Below, piece after piece: positions 1,178 through 14,114 of a stretch of 41,276 bases of DNA (its first letter is position 1; each line of letters opens with the position of its first letter). The DNA lies in assembly GCA_001767525.1 (NCBI GenBank), contig MELF01000045.1:1-41276 (forward strand). The letters run 5' to 3'. The position numbers and the translations under genes are program-made. The notes beneath the pieces were generated by a model. It made no database searches and was not told the origin of the DNA. It saw nothing but the letters and a program-made list of their open reading frames with translations. The DNA comes from Acidobacteria bacterium RIFCSPLOWO2_12_FULL_68_19. GTDB taxonomy: Bacteria; Acidobacteriota; Vicinamibacteria; Vicinamibacterales; UBA2999.

Positions 1178-1786
1178 TCACGGAGTGAGCGCCGCCGGGG
1201 AAGCCACGATCGCTGCCGGTGACTCAGGGGAGGGTGACCGGCGGTAGGCGTACACGAAGCGTTTGAACTCCGGATGCAGGAAGCTTGCGCCGAATTTGTA
1301 CCGCTTCATCTCCTTGAACGCCTGTTCCGCGCTCCACCGCTGGTCGGCCATCCGGTGGATAGCGGTCATGATGCCCGTCCGGTGGCGCCCGCCGGCGCAG
1401 TGCACGTAGACCGGCTGGTTCGCCGGATCGTTGACGAGCGCGAGAAACAGCGCGAGCTGCACGGGCGTCGGCGGCACATGCGTCGTCATCGGGATCCGAT
1501 GGAACTTCATCCCCGCGGCTTCGACGCGCGCCGGTTCGCTGGCGGAGCCGTCCGCCTGAAGATCGATGACGGTTCTGATGCCGAAGGCCGCCAGGGCGGC
1601 GTAGTCGCGGTCTGACGGCTGCGAGCCGCGATAGTACAGGTCGGTCACGCGTCCGAAGTTGTCGATCCCGAGCGCAGGCGCGCCACCACTGGTCGCCTCC
1701 CGGGTTTGAGCCGATGGGGCTCCCCACAGGAAGACGCTGAGTCCAGCAGCCGCGACGCTGCGCGCACGTGTCCTCTTGCAGCCCAT
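1178..1786 (-). CDS. Exported tyrosine/dual-specificity phosphatase family protein
   Basis: 202-residue protein of the cysteine-dependent phosphatase superfamily. The P-loop HCAGGRHRTG (Cys130, Arg136; CX5R) is intact and preceded by the usual NQPVYV strand. An N-terminal Lys/Arg stretch and a hydrophobic run ending around GAPSAQ look like a signal peptide, so the enzyme probably acts in the periplasm. The ATG at 1786 was chosen over an in-frame start 75 nt upstream because it directly precedes the signal peptide and follows an A/G-rich GAAAGGGG. It lies downstream of and on the same strand as the TMPK-like operon (142-nt gap), so co-transcription is possible. Substrate unknown; proteins of this type act on phosphotyrosine, inositol phosphates or other phosphoesters. 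Family call secure, role unknown. Confidence 0.82.
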   Translation of the reverse strand: MGCKRTRARSVAAAGLSVFLWGAPSAQTREATSGGAPALGIDNFGRVTDLYYRGSQPSDRDYAALAAFGIRTVIDLQADGSASEPARVEAAGMKFHRIPMTTHVPPTPVQLALFLALVNDPANQPVYVHCAGGRHRTGIMTAIHRMADQRWSAEQAFKEMKRYKFGASFLHPEFKRFVYAYRRSPSPESPAAIVASPAALTP

Positions 1787-1927
1787 GGCGCGCCCCTTTC
1801 TGAAGCGGGCCTGTGCACTGCAAGTCCGACGCCAGAGCGAGGGGGGGACAAAGCCGCCCATTCGAGGCGTGCGCGGACGCTCAGGCCGACTGCAGACCTC
1901 CGGAGAGGACAGTCTGCGAGTCCGCGC

Positions 1928-2575
1928 TCATCCGCGCACATCGGAGCGGAACAGCGGCTGGAGGCGGTTCTTGATGTCGTCACAGACATCCTCGATCTGC
2001 GCGGCGGTCTCGATGACCTGAAACCCGTTCTCGCGCGACATGGTCTCGAAGACACTCAGCAGGCGGCGTTGATACTCGACAAAGCTGTCGTACATATCGT
2101 CGCCGAGGACCAGATCCATCCCGGATTCCCAGTAGGTGAACCCGGTGGTCTGTACCACGCGCCGGACGAGCTGCTCGACGTCGGCCCGGAGGTAGATGAC
2201 GATGTCCGGCTTCAGCGCGAAGTCGTAGACGCCCTCGATCCACCGAGGTTCGGCGCCGCGGACGATCGCGCGTGCCATGAGGGAGTAAATGTAGCGATCC
2301 GTCAGGACCACGAATCCGGCACGCAAGGCCGGCATGATCTCCTTCTCGAGCCGGTCCGCGAAATCCGTGGCGTAGAACAGGCTCATCGTGATGCGGCCCA
2401 GCGTGTTCCCCTCGGTGGCCGCCTCGAGGCCCTTGCCGGCCAGGGCGGAACGCGTTATCCCGGTGTCGAGCACCGCATGGCCGGTGTTCTCGAACCACTG
2501 CTTGAGCAGCCGGATGTGCGTGGAGCGCCCGACGCCGTCGGCGCCCTCCACGACGATCAGCGTGCCCCGGCTCAC
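1928..2575 (-). CDS. Thymidylate kinase-like protein with altered Walker A
   Basis: 215-residue P-loop kinase of the thymidylate kinase family. It keeps the family layout: P-loop at residues 10-19, the TDFADRLEKEI helix (about 70-80), and DRYIYS (D93-R94-Y95). The P-loop reads EGADGVGRST, so the Walker A lysine is replaced by Arg17, a change expected to impair phosphoryl transfer. The AYQ signature that follows DRY in true dTMP kinases reads ARA. The GTG start at 2575 overlaps the stop of the upstream paralogue (GTGA), indicating translational coupling. It could be a regulatory or heterodimeric partner of the paralogue, or a kinase for another nucleotide-like substrate. Membership of the family is clear; dTMP as substrate is not supported. 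Confidence 0.8.
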   Translation of the reverse strand: MSRGTLIVVEGADGVGRSTHIRLLKQWFENTGHAVLDTGITRSALAGKGLEAATEGNTLGRITMSLFYATDFADRLEKEIMPALRAGFVVLTDRYIYSLMARAIVRGAEPRWIEGVYDFALKPDIVIYLRADVEQLVRRVVQTTGFTYWESGMDLVLGDDMYDSFVEYQRRLLSVFETMSRENGFQVIETAAQIEDVCDDIKNRLQPLFRSDVRG

Positions 2576-3252
2576 GCCCGTGCCTCCATCGTCCGGGCGC
2601 CGGTCAACCTCCGTGTGACGACGGCGCGCACCTGCGCCTGCTGGTCTTCGATCGACTGAGTGGCGTCGATGACGACGAGTCCGAATTCGTCGACCATCTG
2701 CTCGTACTCGCTGATGACCGAGCGCTGAAACACGCGGAAGCTCTCCTCGGCATCGCCGAGGTGCGTCCGGTCCATGCCCGCTTCGTAGTAGCTGATGGCA
2801 TGGCGCCCGTCGACGAGGCGCTTCACCGCCTCGTCGACGGAGATGCGGAAGTAGAAGCCGATGGTCGGTGTCACCGCAAACCGGTACAGGTTGCGCACCC
2901 AGCGGGCGTCCACCCCTCGGGCGACGTCGCGCGCGAAGGCGGTATAGGCGTACCGGTCGGCGAGCACGATCGCCCCGGCCTTGAGCGGCGGGACGATGTG
3001 GCGCTCGCTGCGCTCGGCGAAATCCGTCGCGTGGATCAGGCTGAACGTCGTCGGGGTGAGCAGGCGCTTCTTCTTGCCCCGGCGGGTGACATTGCGCACG
3101 AGCGGCGACGAGTTCCACTCGCTGAAGTAGGTGCCGTATCCCTCCCACTCGAGCCACTTCTGCAGGAGCGACAACTGCGTGCTCTTGCCGGCGCCGTCGA
3201 TCCCTTCGGCGACGAACAGACGTCCGGGAAAGTCCTGCGCGTCGCTCCTCAT
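2572..3252 (-). CDS. Thymidylate kinase-like protein (first of tandem pair)
   Basis: 226-residue P-loop kinase. Walker A is canonical (EGIDGAGKST, Lys23) and the DRYAYT motif (D99-R100-Y101) is present. As in its downstream paralogue, the segment after DRY reads ARDVARG rather than the AYQG of housekeeping dTMP kinases, so the nucleoside pocket probably differs. Shared blocks such as TDFAER...EIxPxL show that the two genes arose by duplication. The ATG at 3252 overlaps the stop of the kinase-like lipoprotein gene (ATGA), and its own stop overlaps the next start (GTGA). The three genes therefore form a tightly coupled operon. A housekeeping tmk presumably lies elsewhere (inference). Confidence 0.82.
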   Translation of the reverse strand: MRSDAQDFPGRLFVAEGIDGAGKSTQLSLLQKWLEWEGYGTYFSEWNSSPLVRNVTRRGKKKRLLTPTTFSLIHATDFAERSERHIVPPLKAGAIVLADRYAYTAFARDVARGVDARWVRNLYRFAVTPTIGFYFRISVDEAVKRLVDGRHAISYYEAGMDRTHLGDAEESFRVFQRSVISEYEQMVDEFGLVVIDATQSIEDQQAQVRAVVTRRLTGARTMEARA

Positions 3253-4202
3253 GAGCCGCCGGCGACCTCGAGACCCTCATCGACCTTCTGCCGCAGCCGG
3301 ACCACGTACCGCCGCGCCTCCGCATCGCTGTACCCGGCGGCCCGGAAGGCGTCGCTCCATTGAGCGGCGCTCAGGCGCGCGAGGCGCTCTGAAATCCAGC
3401 GCACGTCGGCAGGGGTCACCCCGCGCGTGAGGTGCGGCTTGCGCCACCCACCGCGGTAGTGAAACCGGACGTGGTCATGGCGCACCGAGTGGATGAAGTC
3501 TTCACGCTCGAAGTCGTCGAGGTTGTCTTTCGAGCCGGCGAAGAGCCAGCGGGTGCCGCCGAGCGAGGCGCCGAGGTCGCGCACCACATAGCGGCGCACG
3601 GGCGCGGCCCGTCCATCCGTCAGCTCATAACGAACGTTCTGCTGCGTCTTCAGATCCCAGTTGTTCACGATGACCATCAGCACGAAGAGTCCGCGCAGCG
3701 GCGCGGTGCCGACGAACGGATTGGCGCTCCAGGACCAGCGCTCGATTCGCTTCTCGCCGTCGGCATCGAGCCGGAACCGGCCCGGGGGCTGCGGATTCGG
3801 GTCGGACGTGCCGGTGAGCGTCCACCTTGGAAGATAGTAGGTGGCCGGCTGGAAGTACCCCGCCGCCCACAGGAGGCGGGATACCACGACTTCGGGCCGC
3901 GCCTCCGGGCCGATCTTGACGCTCCACAGCCGGCCCTGCCCATCGCGCACGTCGTACCCGCGGCTGTTGCCGGTGACGTCGCGCGCCACGAACTGGTATG
4001 CCTCGAGAGGGTCCGGGGCGGCGTCGCGCCCACCGGGGCCCCAGAACAGGTCGCGCCCGGCGTCGGGCTCGCCCCACAACTCGGACATCGGCGGGGCGGG
4101 CGCCCCGTCGGCCACCGTCGACCGCTCCCTGAGCGCACACGCCGGCACCGCGCACAGCAGCACTGCCACGCTGATCACGCTGGTCACGCGGAGCCACGTC
4201 AT
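3249..4202 (-). CDS. Predicted lipoprotein with kinase-like fold motifs
   Basis: 317 residues. The N-terminus is a signal peptide ending in a lipobox-like AVPAC (Cys22), so the product is probably a lipid-anchored periplasmic protein. The remainder has motifs in the order expected for a protein/PI3-kinase-like fold: a lysine in SVKIG (Lys96), a following glutamate (Glu104), a catalytic-loop-like NNWDLKTQQN (Asp183, Asn189), and RDLGASLG (Asp209) as the metal-binding DxG equivalent. I did not recognise a named family; HipA-like, CotH-like or Fam20-like kinases are alternatives. It is the first gene of the operon with the two TMPK-like genes (ATGA overlap) and starts 20 nt below the -10 of a palindrome-associated promoter. 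The ATG at 4202 was chosen because it directly precedes the signal peptide; sequence upstream of it is promoter DNA. Confidence 0.55.
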   Translation of the reverse strand: MTWLRVTSVISVAVLLCAVPACALRERSTVADGAPAPPMSELWGEPDAGRDLFWGPGGRDAAPDPLEAYQFVARDVTGNSRGYDVRDGQGRLWSVKIGPEARPEVVVSRLLWAAGYFQPATYYLPRWTLTGTSDPNPQPPGRFRLDADGEKRIERWSWSANPFVGTAPLRGLFVLMVIVNNWDLKTQQNVRYELTDGRAAPVRRYVVRDLGASLGGTRWLFAGSKDNLDDFEREDFIHSVRHDHVRFHYRGGWRKPHLTRGVTPADVRWISERLARLSAAQWSDAFRAAGYSDAEARRYVVRLRQKVDEGLEVAGGS

Positions 4203-4589: not shown

Positions 4590-5240
4590 ATGCCGGATGG
4601 TGCCGGCCTGCTGGCGGATCTGCCCTCGCTGCTGCAGGCGCTGATCGCGTTGCCGCTTGCAGCGCTGTGCGGCACCGTACTCGCGTTCCGGCCCAGGCGC
4701 CGCGGGACGCCGCCGCGCGACACCGCGGTCATTCAAACCCAGATTCTGCTCGCCGTCGTGGGCGCCGTCATCATGCTCGTCGTCGGCGCCAGCCTGGCGC
4801 GGGCGTTCGGCATCGTCGGCGCCGCCAGTCTCATTCGCTACCGGTCGAAGATCGACGACCCGAAGGACGCGGTGGTGATGCTGTCGACCCTGACGGTCGG
4901 GCTCGCGGCGGGCGTCGGACTGAATCTTCTGGCGCTGTTCGCCACGGCGTTCCTCCTGCTCGTCCTCTGGTGGACAGAATCCCTCGAGGCCGACCCGTTC
5001 AACGTGTTCATGCTGACGATCCAGACGAAGGTATCCGAGACGCTCCGCCCGAAGATCGAGCGGCTGCTCAGCGCGAATCACGCGATCTTCGAGCTGCGCG
5101 GCTCGAGCGAGGAGGCGCTGACCTACGAGGTCCAGCTCCCGCTGGGCAAACACCTTGGCCGCCTGTCGACGGCCATCCTGGCGGTGGATACGACCGACAA
5201 CACCGCCGTGGAATGGGCCGACAAGAAGGGCAGGAAATAG
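4590..5240 (+). CDS. DUF4956 family membrane protein
   Basis: 216-residue membrane protein. Two or three N-terminal hydrophobic helices surround the family signature ARAFGIVGAASLIRYRSKID, followed by KDAVVMLSTLTVGLAAGVGL, which is diagnostic for DUF4956/MgtC-like proteins. A soluble C-terminal domain of about 75 residues follows. DUF4956 proteins are commonly found beside VTC-type polyphosphate polymerase domains and CotH-like kinases, but no VTC domain is present here. The ATG at 4590 lies 5-8 nt after a GGCGGGG Shine-Dalgarno-like run; a GTG at 4587 is an alternative. It is the first gene of an operon, with the PLD gene starting 7 nt after its stop. The transporter-like fold suggests ion or polyanion handling, but the function is unproven. 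Confidence 0.8.
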   Translation: MPDGAGLLADLPSLLQALIALPLAALCGTVLAFRPRRRGTPPRDTAVIQTQILLAVVGAVIMLVVGASLARAFGIVGAASLIRYRSKIDDPKDAVVMLSTLTVGLAAGVGLNLLALFATAFLLLVLWWTESLEADPFNVFMLTIQTKVSETLRPKIERLLSANHAIFELRGSSEEALTYEVQLPLGKHLGRLSTAILAVDTTDNTAVEWADKKGRK

Positions 5241-5246
5241 GACCCG

Positions 5247-6149
5247 GTGAAGCTGCTGGTTCAGCCCGACAGCGGTGTTGCGCCTCTCCTGGCCGCGATC
5301 AAGCGCGCGAAGAAATCGGTCGAGATCGCCATCTTCCGATTCGACATCCGGGAGCTGGAGAAGGCCCTCGAGGCGGCGGTCGCCCGCGGCGTGGTCGTCC
5401 ATGCGCTCATCGCGCAGACCAACCAGGGAGGCGCGAAGCTCCTGCGGCAGCTCGAGATGCGGCTCCTCGAGGCCGGCGTCACCGTGTCGCGCACAGCCGA
5501 CGACCTCGTCCGCTATCACGGCAAGTACCTCATCGTCGATCGGGCGTTGCTGTGCGTGCTGGGGTTCAACTCCACGCACCTCGACATGTTCAAGAGCCGG
5601 AGTTTCGGCCTCGTCACCACCCGTCGCGCGCTGGTGCACGAAGCAGCGAAGGTCTTCGAGGCGGACTCGACCCGCCAGCCGTATGCGTCGGTCTCGAAGG
5701 AACTGGTCGTCAGCCCTGTGAATGCGCGCGCCCGCCTGGGTGCGCTGATCGCGGCGGCGCGCACACAGTTGCTCATCTACGACCCTCGCATCAGCGACGC
5801 ACCCATGCTGCGCCTCTGTCAGGAGCGGGCGAAAGCAGGAGTCGACGTCCGGATTCTGGGCGCCGTCAGCGGCCGCGGCGCGGGCCTCCGGGTGGAGAAG
5901 CTGCAGGACCTGCGGCTGCACGTGCGCGCAATCGTGCGCGACGGGATCGAGACGTTCATCGGCAGCCAGAGCCTGCGCGGCGCCGAACTCGATCGGCGGC
6001 GGGAAGTCGGGATCGTCGTGCGCAATCGCCGGATCGCGACGCAGGTGCAGGCGGTGTTCGAGGCGGACTGGGCCCGTCGTCTTGAAATGTCCGCGAAGGA
6101 TGCGCGGCTCTCGCGCGACGAGGCGGCCGACCAGCCGTCACCGGCATGA
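5247..6149 (+). CDS. Phospholipase D-like protein with altered second HKD motif
   Basis: 300-residue PLD-superfamily protein with no signal peptide, so probably cytoplasmic or membrane-peripheral. The first HKD motif is intact (YHGKYLIVD: His91, Lys93, Asp98). The second reads LHVRAIVRD (His225, Arg227, Asp232), with the lysine replaced by arginine, followed by the usual FIGSQSL segment. Such single-HKD architecture occurs in PLD proteins that dimerise or that bind rather than cleave. The start is GTG at 5247, seven nt after the DUF4956 stop, and its stop overlaps the PBP1A start (ATGA). Possible substrates are phospholipids or nucleic acid; the location between two membrane genes favours an envelope role (inference). 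Confidence 0.8.
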   Translation: MKLLVQPDSGVAPLLAAIKRAKKSVEIAIFRFDIRELEKALEAAVARGVVVHALIAQTNQGGAKLLRQLEMRLLEAGVTVSRTADDLVRYHGKYLIVDRALLCVLGFNSTHLDMFKSRSFGLVTTRRALVHEAAKVFEADSTRQPYASVSKELVVSPVNARARLGALIAAARTQLLIYDPRISDAPMLRLCQERAKAGVDVRILGAVSGRGAGLRVEKLQDLRLHVRAIVRDGIETFIGSQSLRGAELDRRREVGIVVRNRRIATQVQAVFEADWARRLEMSAKDARLSRDEAADQPSPA

Positions 6150-8392
6150 CGAAAGCCTGCGGGCGCCTCGGAATCGCCCTGGCGTGCGCCGTCCTCGTGA
6201 CGCTCGCGCCGCTGGGCCTGATCGTCGCGCACGTGTATCACGACCGGGCACGCCTGCCGGATCCCGAGCCGTTCGTGCGCTTCGAGGTCCCGGCGATTGG
6301 CCACGTCTACGACGCCCACGGCCGCCCGCTCATCGCGCTCGCGCGCGAGTACAGGTTGATCTCCACATACGAGGATATCCCCCCAATCGTTCGCCACGCG
6401 ATTCTGGCCGCGGAGGACAAGCGCTTCTTCAGCCACAACGGCGTCGACTATGGCAGCGTGCCGCGGGTGGTGAGCCGTATCAGGATGGGGACGCTGCTGG
6501 CGCGCCTCGTCCGCACGCCCGTCGATGAAGCGGACTCGCCCGCGATCTTTCCGCAGGGCGGCTCCACCATTACCCAGCAGCTCGTGCGCGGTCATTTCCT
6601 CAAGGCGCTGACCGCCGGCGAGAACAGTCGGGCCCTTCGCGGAACCGGGCAGCTCACGCGGTCGGTGTCGTACGTGCTGGGCGCGCGCAACGCCAACATG
6701 CTGGCGCGGAAGGTCGAGGAGATGCGGCTCTCGATCTGGATCGAGCAGGACATGACGCGCCGGTTCGGATCGAAGCGCCGCGCCAAGGAGGAGATCCTCG
6801 CCCGCTACGCCAGCTATGTGTACATGGGGAACGGGCAGTACGGATTTGCCACCGCCGCGCAGTACTACTTTGGCCGACCGCTGGCCACGTTCACGGCCGC
6901 CGACGCCGACAAGGCCGCGCTGCTCGCCGGGATTCCCAAGTCGCCCCGTGACTATGCACCATCGGCGGCGGATCGCGCGACCGTACTGCGGCGCAGGAAC
7001 CAGACCCTGACATTGATGGCGCGCAACGGCTTCCTGACCGCCGACGCGCTGGCGGCCGCCGTGGGGCGCCCGATTCAGGTCGCGGCCCGACGGCGAGGGC
7101 GCATCGCCACGGAGGCGCCGGCCGTCGTGGCCCACGTCCTCGAAGAGCTCGCCGTCGGCGGTGTCGCACGCGGCCTCGAAGACCTGCTGCAGGGCCGAAT
7201 CCAGGTGTACTCGACCGTGGACGCCCGGGTGCAGCAGGTCGCGAACGAAGCGCTCGAGCACGGTCTGCTCGCCTACGAGGCGCGGCACCCGATCGCCCGG
7301 GAACTGGTGCAGGGCTCGGTCGTCGTGCTGGCCAACGGCGATGCGCGGATCCTCGCCGAGGCCGGCGGGCGGCGATCGTACAGAGGCCGCCCCGCGGGGT
7401 ACAGCGACTTCAACCGTGTCACCGGGTCCTTCCGGCAGCCGGGGTCGGCGATCAAGCCGATCGTCTACCTGGCCGCGTTTCGCCACGGAGATTTCGATCT
7501 CGAGACGCTGGTGCCCGACGAGCCGATCGAAGTGCCGGACGGGGAGGGCACGAAGTGGATCGCCAATTATGACGGGCGGTTCAAGGGGATGATCCCGGTC
7601 CGGCAGGCGCTCGCCGAGTCGAGGAACGCGGCCGCCGTCTGGATCACGAGGCGGATCGGCATCGACAGCGTCCTGCGCGCCTCCGAGCGCCTCGGGGTAC
7701 GGACGCCGCTCCACGGCTACGTCGCCACGGCCCTGGGCGCCTCCGAAATGAGCCTGCTGGAGCTCGCCAACGCCTACCGGACGATCGCCTCCGGCGTGCT
7801 CGCCCAGCCGTATGTCATTCGGCGCGTGGTCCACGCGTCCGCCGGCGCGGCTGCCGATCCCGACGCGGATCGGCCTCGGCCGGTGGCCGTTGGCGACGAG
7901 GCGCTGCTCCTCATTCAGGAAGGGCTGCGGAGCGTCGTGCGCCTCCCCGGGGGAACCGCGCACGCTCTCGATTCGGGGCGCTTTCCAATCGCGGTCATGG
8001 GCAAGACCGGCACGACGAACGAGTTTCGCGACGCGCTCTTCGTCGGCTCGACGTACGGCTCCGGAGGCATTACCGTGGCCGTTCGCATCGGCTTCGACGA
8101 CAACCGCTCTCTCGGCGCGAGGGAAACCGGCGCCAGAGTGGCCCTTCCGATTTTCCGGGAGGTGATGCTCCGCGTCTACCAAGATGGGCTGGCCGGTCCC
8201 GCACCAGGTTTTCCGCCGGCGCTCGAAGCGCGCATCACGGTCTACCTGCAGGGCCCGCCGGACGTGGCTCCCGCGGTCGTGCCAGCCCTCGAACCTGTCG
8301 CTCCGTTGAGCGGAGTCGCCCTGACGAGGATTTCGGATGAGAGTCCGGACGGAGCGGGGCTTCGGCCGATCATCCCGAGGAACTCGAGGTGA
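6146..8392 (+). CDS. Class A penicillin-binding protein (PBP1A-type)
   Basis: 748-residue bifunctional peptidoglycan synthase: glycosyltransferase GT51 then transpeptidase. There is one N-terminal membrane anchor (residues about 8-30). The GT51 motifs are AAEDKRFFSHNG (catalytic Glu90) and GGSTITQQLVR. The transpeptidase shows the SxxK tetrad in RQPGSAIKP (about residue 434), an SRN triad (about 491) and GKTGTTNEF (about 617). All catalytic residues are present and the length is normal. Its ATG overlaps the PLD stop. An insertion of about 40 residues lies just before GGSTITQQ compared with E. coli-type enzymes. The last dozen residues are antisense to the truncated regulator remnant. The role in septal or lateral wall synthesis cannot be told from sequence. 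Confidence 0.93.
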   Translation: MTKACGRLGIALACAVLVTLAPLGLIVAHVYHDRARLPDPEPFVRFEVPAIGHVYDAHGRPLIALAREYRLISTYEDIPPIVRHAILAAEDKRFFSHNGVDYGSVPRVVSRIRMGTLLARLVRTPVDEADSPAIFPQGGSTITQQLVRGHFLKALTAGENSRALRGTGQLTRSVSYVLGARNANMLARKVEEMRLSIWIEQDMTRRFGSKRRAKEEILARYASYVYMGNGQYGFATAAQYYFGRPLATFTAADADKAALLAGIPKSPRDYAPSAADRATVLRRRNQTLTLMARNGFLTADALAAAVGRPIQVAARRRGRIATEAPAVVAHVLEELAVGGVARGLEDLLQGRIQVYSTVDARVQQVANEALEHGLLAYEARHPIARELVQGSVVVLANGDARILAEAGGRRSYRGRPAGYSDFNRVTGSFRQPGSAIKPIVYLAAFRHGDFDLETLVPDEPIEVPDGEGTKWIANYDGRFKGMIPVRQALAESRNAAAVWITRRIGIDSVLRASERLGVRTPLHGYVATALGASEMSLLELANAYRTIASGVLAQPYVIRRVVHASAGAAADPDADRPRPVAVGDEALLLIQEGLRSVVRLPGGTAHALDSGRFPIAVMGKTGTTNEFRDALFVGSTYGSGGITVAVRIGFDDNRSLGARETGARVALPIFREVMLRVYQDGLAGPAPGFPPALEARITVYLQGPPDVAPAVVPALEPVAPLSGVALTRISDESPDGAGLRPIIPRNSR

Positions 8393-13026: not shown

Positions 13027-13302
13027 ATGTTGGGTATGGACCGCACGGTGCGAGCCTACCTGGCAGAGATTGGGCGGAGAGGGGGCCGGAAGAGCCGGCG
13101 CCGGCTGGATCCGGACGCGGCCCGCCAGATGGTGCGGCTCCGCGAGGCGCGGCGTGCGTTTCGGCGCTTCCACGCGCAGTGCTTCTGGTCCTGCGATCCG
13201 GAGTATGCCGTCACGGCGCGTGACGTGCCCTGGGTGGCGGAGCAGTTGATGAAGTTCGGCGGGCTGCGCGGCTGGGAGCTTGGCGCACGACTATGCCGCT
13301 GA
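13027..13302 (+). CDS. Small basic protein paired with AbiEii-type toxin, probable antitoxin
   Basis: 91 residues (88 if the ATG at 13036 is used). The N-terminus carries a Gly/Arg/Lys-rich segment (EIGRRGGRKSRRRLDP), plausibly DNA- or RNA-binding, followed by a helical domain with CFWSCDPEY. It precedes the nucleotidyltransferase gene and overlaps it by 10 nt, the classic antitoxin-toxin arrangement. Its sequence is not the standard AbiEi winged helix; I recall similar small proteins next to AbiEii-like genes, but without a family name. The upstream DNA (13000-13026) is unusually AT-rich for the region and includes TATCAT, a plausible -10. Antitoxin role is inferred from position. Confidence 0.6.
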   Translation: MLGMDRTVRAYLAEIGRRGGRKSRRRLDPDAARQMVRLREARRAFRRFHAQCFWSCDPEYAVTARDVPWVAEQLMKFGGLRGWELGARLCR

Positions 13303-14114
13303 CCCCCTATCAGGAAGAGGTCGCTCGGCTGCTGTCGGCGAACCGGAGCTTCGACAACTACCTCGCCGGCGGCGCCGCGATCCACCTGGAGCCGAACACC
13401 CGGCGCTACAGCAACGATCTCGATTACTTTCAGGACTCGGTCGAGCGCGTCGCCAGCGCGTTCACCGACGACGTGCGGCAGCTGCGCGCCGCCGGTCACG
13501 ACGCGGCCGCCGAGATACAGCTGCCGGGGTACATTCGCGCCACCGTCTCGCGAGGCGGCGCGCACACCAAAGTGGAATGGGCGCACGACTCGGCGTGGCG
13601 CTTCATGCCAACGATCCGCAGCGACGTCGTCGGCTACATGCTGCACCCGATCGATCTGGCCATCAACAAGCTGCTGGCGCTGGCCGGACGCGACGAGCCG
13701 CGCGACTTCCTCGACATCCTCGACCTGCACGCCCGGACGCTGCAGCTGGGCGCGCTCTGCTGGGCGGCGGCGGGGAAGGATCCGGGCTTCACGCCGTTCG
13801 CGCTGCTGGAGATGCTGCGGCGCAGAGGGAAGTATTACGCGGAGGATTTCGAGCGCCTCAACCTGGTGGAGCCGGTCGACCTGCCCGCCCTGAAGAACCA
13901 ATGGTTGGCCGCTCTCGCCGGTGCGGACGCCTTCGTGCGCCGCCGCCCGCCAGACGAAGTCGGGTGCCTGTATTACTCGCCCGGTCTCGCGCGGTTTGTG
14001 GCACCGGGACCGGACGGGCCGGCGGACGTCGTTCCGCATTACGGCCGTCCGGGTGGGGTGCTTCCGCGGGTTCTCGACGGCGATGGTGCGTCGGAGGCCG
14101 GAGAAACCCCGTAA
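13293..14114 (+). CDS. AbiEii/AbiGii-type nucleotidyltransferase, probable toxin
   Basis: 273-residue minimal nucleotidyltransferase. The signature is near the N-terminus: YLAGGAAIHLE (Gly26-Gly27) followed by SNDLDYF (Asp42, Asp44), the metal-binding pair of the fold. HPIDLAINKLLALAGRDEPRDFLDI is the conserved helix-rich second motif. AbiEii toxins transfer nucleotides to tRNA or other targets and cause growth arrest or abortive infection. It overlaps the upstream small gene by 10 nt. Length is within the usual range. An alternative is a non-toxic nucleotidyltransferase of the same fold, but the paired small gene favours a toxin-antitoxin module. Confidence 0.75.
   Translation: MPLTPYQEEVARLLSANRSFDNYLAGGAAIHLEPNTRRYSNDLDYFQDSVERVASAFTDDVRQLRAAGHDAAAEIQLPGYIRATVSRGGAHTKVEWAHDSAWRFMPTIRSDVVGYMLHPIDLAINKLLALAGRDEPRDFLDILDLHARTLQLGALCWAAAGKDPGFTPFALLEMLRRRGKYYAEDFERLNLVEPVDLPALKNQWLAALAGADAFVRRRPPDEVGCLYYSPGLARFVAPGPDGPADVVPHYGRPGGVLPRVLDGDGASEAGETP

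Follow-up and report, generated by a model that had tools for sequence, protein, structure and literature searches.

A conserved pair of thymidylate kinase-like genes as a candidate polyphosphate enzyme in Acidobacteria and other bacterial phyla

Described relatives and the gene pair

The described systems closest to the gene pair considered here are crenarchaeal. One report (PMC10892726) describes a gene cluster of biomining Sulfolobales comprising SixA, PPX, a 'dTMP kinase' (deoxythymidine monophosphate kinase) and CHAD, and treats the crenarchaeal polyphosphate-synthesising enzyme as not yet identified at that time. A later publication calls this enzyme 'recently characterized', and a preprint (Hofmann et al. 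2024) and an article (Hofmann, Kogay, Schmerling et al. 2026, J Biol Chem 302:111283) are reported to describe a separate family of polyphosphate kinases in Crenarchaeota. PPK2, a separate polyphosphate kinase family, is described as thymidylate kinase-like in PMC3163519. The present analysis concerns a window, meaning the whole stretch of 41,276 nucleotides that was analysed (contig MELF01000045.1, Acidobacteria bacterium RIFCSPLOWO2_12_FULL_68_19), and within it two adjacent genes, T1 and T2, whose products have the thymidylate kinase (TMPK) fold. The first-pass annotation of this DNA was aware of no described system of this composition, a view that is too strong given the printed Sulfolobales cluster and the reported crenarchaeal family. 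The literature search, with most subscription papers and preprints outside its reach, returned no paper on the bacterial pair.

T1, positions 2572-3252, minus strand: TMPK-fold protein with an intact Walker A motif, GAGKST (Pfam Thymidylate_kin, expectation value (E) 1.5e-22); proposed catalytic subunit.
T2, positions 1928-2575, minus strand: TMPK-fold paralogue with GVGRST, the Walker lysine replaced by arginine (Pfam Thymidylate_kin, E 9.3e-21); proposed partner subunit.
LIPK, positions 3249-4202, minus strand: putative exported, lipid-anchored protein with kinase-like motifs, overlapping the T1 start through ATGA.

The open reading frames of the window place these three genes on the minus strand, joined by stop-start overlaps (ATGA and GTGA), and the earlier description of three overlapping genes bearing GAGKST and GVGRST is therefore real. 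We consider it probable that T1 and T2 form a two-subunit polyphosphate enzyme of the TMPK fold, a bacterial branch of the Sulfolobales 'dTMP kinase' group, itself probably the group recently named family 3 polyphosphate kinases. The family 3 enzyme is crenarchaeal, whereas T1 and T2 are bacterial and form a two-gene lysine/arginine unit in ten phyla; family 3 is probably the TMPK-like 'dTMP kinase' of the PPX/CHAD cluster, in the lineage of the archaeal relative 2plr.

The lysine/arginine pair and ordinary thymidylate kinases

The pair was followed in two sets of loci. Among 297 genomes of the window's phylum, 37 contain T1 and T2 as a tandem pair. Named genomes, scanned with an alignment of T1, supplied the best 80 out of 532 relatives; judged by their titles all 80 are bacterial, and these loci represent the closest relatives rather than an even sample and include three duplicates of phylum loci. 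The Walker lysine of T1 is present in 80/80 named loci. T2 was found in 79 of the 80, the exception (L116) being a contig of 5 kilobases (kb), and carries arginine in 79/79, of which 74 were scored by script and five by eye. Within the phylum, lysine occurs in 37/37 T1 and arginine in 37/37 T2 scored; the phylum tally for T1 covers 38 loci, including L091, which lacks T1 at a contig end and entered through its T2. Both genes lie on the same strand in all 115 loci with both scored (36 phylum and 79 named, with three repeats). The pairing of a normal P-loop with a lysine-to-arginine paralogue, noted in the first-pass annotation for this locus, thus recurs on one strand in every locus sampled across ten phyla, and the fixation it had raised as a point to check is borne out, lysine being seen in no sampled T2. 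A chance lysine-to-arginine change was considered and set aside, since arginine is fixed in every sampled T2.

A midpoint-drawn tree of 84 proteins, including 15 ordinary thymidylate kinases (tmks) from the phylum, among them that of the window's genome, places T2 in one clade (support 100/100) and T1 in another (96/87). Both clades span ten phyla: Acidobacteria (the window's phylum), Omnitrophota, Nitrospirota, Armatimonadota, Planctomycetota, Chloroflexota, Vulcanimicrobiota, Ignavibacteriota, Poribacteria and Myxococcota. Because the two clades are separate and each extends across these phyla, the replacement in T2 would most simply have arisen once and then been retained. The T1/T2 pair is an old conserved unit.

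Relative to canonical dTMP kinase (TIGR00041, PF02223), the fold is the same and T1 has the P-loop in common, but both proteins fall just under the equivalog cut-off of 83.25 bits (T1 81.6, T2 75.7), form separate clades and have two pocket residues replaced. The arginine of the ADR motif in the thymidine pocket is Phe or Leu, and the tyrosine of the AYQ motif is Arg, in 30/30 T1, 29/29 T2 and 2plr, while 15/15 tmks retain both residues; the pocket roles assigned to these positions are those known from TMPK structures and are presumed to apply here. The reported absence of the AYQ signature from T1 and T2 is thereby upheld through its tyrosine. Its Gln column is uninformative because it is gapped in T1/T2 and also in four tmk rows, and the stacking position (His in T1 and 2plr, Tyr in T2) varies among tmks too. 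The DRY motif is retained in T1/T2. The best Protein Data Bank (PDB) match for both proteins is 2plr of Sulfolobus tokodaii (E 1.4e-55 for T1, 1.1e-33 for T2), and T1, T2 and 2plr group together in the tree (96/86), apart from the 15 ordinary tmks; 2plr has its own Walker lysine. No PPK2 (PF03976) match was returned for T1 or T2 in the Pfam search. A plain duplicate tmk was set aside, as the window's genome encodes a separate tmk and the pocket is altered. The replaced pocket residues, the separate tmk and the separate clade are signs that the pair may act on a substrate other than dTMP, as the first-pass annotation had suggested, and genes of the T1/T2 type should not be annotated as tmk.

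In three loci (L082, L083, L084) a small Lys/Ala/Pro-rich protein is encoded directly 3' of T2 (positions 6612-7112 in L082). Pfam returns nothing for the L084 copy; these proteins may resemble histone-like granule proteins.

Association with polyphosphate genes

Neighbour clustering over 47 phylum loci, with a Pfam check of one representative per cluster, identifies Ppx-GppA, CHAD, a histidine phosphatase here termed SixA-type, metallophosphoesterase and ABC ATPase genes; the CYTH part of the CHAD neighbour is weak and below cut-off, and PstB counts were left unused, the query also matching MsbA-like exporters. In 50/80 named and 28/38 phylum loci, T1 has a Ppx, CHAD or SixA-type gene no more than 5 kb away. 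The same queries find such a gene in 0/53 LIPK-centred phylum loci (L191-L243), a control of hand-chosen LIPK matches without the window's own and L074 (G091:C51), at a length similar to that of the pair loci (medians 14.0 kb for the control and 13.7 kb for the pair). L074, which carries LIPK together with the pair, has a SixA-type gene, and adding it and the window brings the control to 1/55. The ppx/CHAD linkage of the printed Sulfolobales 'dTMP kinase' cluster is accordingly found across loci, not in the window.

Nine further loci (L100-L108) carry a divergent T1-like gene, adjoined in six by a P-loop-less paralogue; several also encode STAS-DUF4956, porin O/P, PLD and CotH kinase proteins, and L176 has the lysine/arginine pair plus a set of this STAS-DUF4956/porin/PLD/CotH type.

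PPK1, scored in all 297 phylum genomes, is present in 167. It occurs in 5/37 genomes with the pair versus 155/252 without any pair (Fisher p 2.6e-8, uncorrected for relatedness), and in 7/8 genomes with the divergent pair, which stand outside this test, G107 (also with the lysine/arginine pair) being set apart. In the 16 families containing a pair genome the figures are 5/37 versus 21/38 (p 2e-4), the 38 including six divergent-pair genomes and family members being typed from tables that omit at least 13 genomes; in several of these families PPK1 is missing from every member listed. For PPK2 there is no corresponding deficit, with matches in 30/37 pair genomes, 21/35 hand-chosen non-pair genomes and 4/8 divergent-pair genomes. 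G297, from the same genus, carries PPK1 without the pair, and G302 carries the tandem pair without PPK1. The T1/T2 pair tends to stand in for PPK1.

The window's genome has no PPK1 and no PPK2 match, and its polyphosphate kinase candidates are the T1/T2 pair and one VTC-domain protein (G000:C38:70938-71534, L244), with no others found. VTC-domain matches occur in 4/37 pair genomes, the window's included, and in 4 of the same 35 non-pair genomes. Full Ppx was detected in 6/9 pair genomes searched. S. acidocaldarius, taken as a control, was matched by the Ppx search and not by those for PPK1, PPK2 or VTC.

LIPK, its module and the competing explanations

The genes flanking the trio in the window are as follows.

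PTP, positions 1178-1861, minus strand: dual-specificity-type phosphatase (Pfam PTP-NADK, E 3e-19; Y_phosphatase2).
MgtC/DUF4956 membrane protein, positions 4590-5240, plus strand: Pfam MgtC, E 4.6e-9, and DUF4956, E 7.4e-9; divergent from LIPK.
PLD-like protein, positions 5247-6149, plus strand: Pfam PLDc_2, E 2.5e-24.
Bifunctional penicillin-binding protein (transglycosylase and transpeptidase), positions 6146-8392, plus strand: family match, with a 4-base overlap with the PLD gene.

The PTP reading frame lies 66 bases downstream of T2, and its true start may be internal. The first-pass annotation had placed an exported phosphatase next door; the dual-specificity family assignment stands and such genes recur in this setting, and export is suggested by an N-terminus that appears signal-like by eye. 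LIPK has a hydrophobic N-terminal stretch ending in VPAC, by eye a lipoprotein signal. In an alignment of 34 homologues, from which L219 was excluded for an internal stop, K96, E100, D183, D209 and G211 (D209-x-G211) are invariant and N188 is conserved in at least 90%, residues that may constitute a kinase-like signature. The motifs of the lipoprotein proposed earlier therefore hold, while no kinase family or structure match is convincing: neither Pfam nor NCBIfam assigns LIPK to a family, the PDB hits of its sequence (three chains, best E 0.11) do not rise above chance, and the profile of its family returns none. HipA_C is matched in 1/34 members (E 0.033), and identity with HipA or CotH was rejected at hhalign probabilities of 0.4% and 0.6% (alignments of 8 and 5 sequences). 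An AlphaFold2 model from the single sequence is unusable, with a predicted local distance difference test (pLDDT) score of 38.

LIPK matches, some of them weak fragments, occur in 42/297 phylum genomes, and a search of plasmids gave no match. Around LIPK in the 53 loci, a non-overlapping listing gives PLD in 14, DUF4956 or STAS-DUF4956 in 8, phosphatase in 8 and PPK1 in 4; an alternative PPK1 count of 8 probably reflects PLD cross-matches. LIPK directly adjoins PPK1 in L202, L208, L209 and L220, where the locus also contains a dual-specificity-type phosphatase and sometimes DUF4956. That a single family neighbours PPK1 in certain genomes and T1/T2 in others offers independent but slender evidence for a part of the pair in polyphosphate metabolism. 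In G303, the nearest relative found (T1 83% identical), the pair locus L111 encodes a phosphatase 62% identical to PTP two genes upstream of T1, and a CRP-like regulator also precedes T1/T2; this locus has no LIPK match, the LIPK of G303 being on another contig.

In the proposed mechanism, T1, with a working P-loop, would shuttle phosphate groups from nucleotide to polyphosphate or back. In T2 the fold and the arginine of the DRY motif are retained, and because arginine occupies the position of the Walker lysine this subunit would have little or no catalytic activity and would complete, hold together or regulate the complex. The pair in the window would operate inside a module (LIPK, DUF4956, PLD, phosphatase) whose lipoprotein adjoins PPK1 in some relatives. 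The analysis itself shows the conservation of the pair, the fixed lysine/arginine split, the phylogeny, the gene context and the PPK1 anticorrelation; polyphosphate as the substrate, the hetero-oligomer, the role of T2, any role of LIPK and the direction of the reaction are inferred. A polyphosphate-consuming pair, carrying out polyphosphate-dependent nucleotide phosphorylation in the manner of PPK2, is a sub-case that differs in direction; Ppx neighbours are compatible with either direction, and PPK2 itself has in common with the proposed T1/T2 enzyme both a thymidylate kinase-like fold and polyphosphate (PMC3163519). However, PPK2, the usual consumer, is common in pair genomes whereas PPK1, the usual maker, is rare, so that the pair seems to take the maker's place and consumption appears somewhat unlikely. 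Less likely again is a second nucleotide kinase pair, for dTMP or another nucleoside monophosphate, that merely travels with phosphate genes. The Thymidylate_kin matches, the near-cut-off dTMP_kinase scores and the retained DRY motif would suit it, as would the naming of 2plr as a probable thymidylate kinase and the title of its paper, which refers to an archaeal thymidylate kinase; against this stand the separate tmk, the replacement of two pocket residues throughout the sampled T1 and T2 proteins, and the neighbour genes and PPK1 anticorrelation, which point toward polyphosphate. The third alternative, a single system of a periplasmic kinase-like lipoprotein with a catalytic and regulatory kinase pair, is very improbable. 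It would account for the two stop-start overlaps in the window and for LIPK within 5 kb of T1 in L064 and L074 as well, but these three are the only such cases among 38 phylum loci, the one case among the 80 named loci is a repeat of L064, LIPK was not found beside the pair in G303, and most LIPK loci analysed are without the pair. The conservation of the trio, which the first-pass annotation had made a point to check, consequently fails, an outcome named there as refuting and here reached for the trio; LIPK is an occasional partner and the window trio a local arrangement.

Several observations weigh against the preferred explanation, a two-subunit polyphosphate enzyme. The window's own pair has no Ppx, CHAD or SixA-type gene found close by, and its genome is without a full Ppx, a partial match (E 1.4e-4) being below cut-off; the pair genomes G074 and G229 have no Ppx match. 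Five of the 37 pair genomes carry PPK1 as well; both are present in G303 and also in G304, whose coordinates coincide with those of G191, one of the five. When divergent-pair genomes are removed from the family comparison, the PPK1 difference is modest (5/37 versus 15/32, p 0.003), and the within-family p-values, too, are uncorrected for relatedness. The VTC-domain proteins of the window's genome and three other pair genomes make another polyphosphate route possible. The S. tokodaii relative 2plr was published as an archaeal thymidylate kinase, and since it branches outside T1 and T2 the archaeal enzyme may be without an arginine partner. Confidence in the two-subunit enzyme is slightly reduced by this weakening of the PPK1 signal within families and by the lack of a full Ppx in three of the nine pair genomes searched.

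Where PPK2, Ppx or CHAD genes occur without PPK1, as they do in some bacteria, there is no obvious polyphosphate synthase, a gap that the T1/T2 unit could fill. It could also carry the archaeal enzyme family into a large number of bacterial phyla and serve as a clear natural example of a Walker A lysine-to-arginine partner retained for a very long time. A broader proposal is tentative: at least ten phyla might make polyphosphate through an obligate heteromer of two TMPK-fold subunits, one catalytic and one with a permanent arginine in Walker A, often displacing PPK1, with a P-loop-less partner in the side branch and, in the window's lineage, coupling to a surface module (LIPK, DUF4956, PLD, phosphatase) that would serve either the pair or PPK1.

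Elsewhere in the window, the product of positions 13293-14114 on the plus strand resembles AbiEii-type nucleotidyltransferases by eye.

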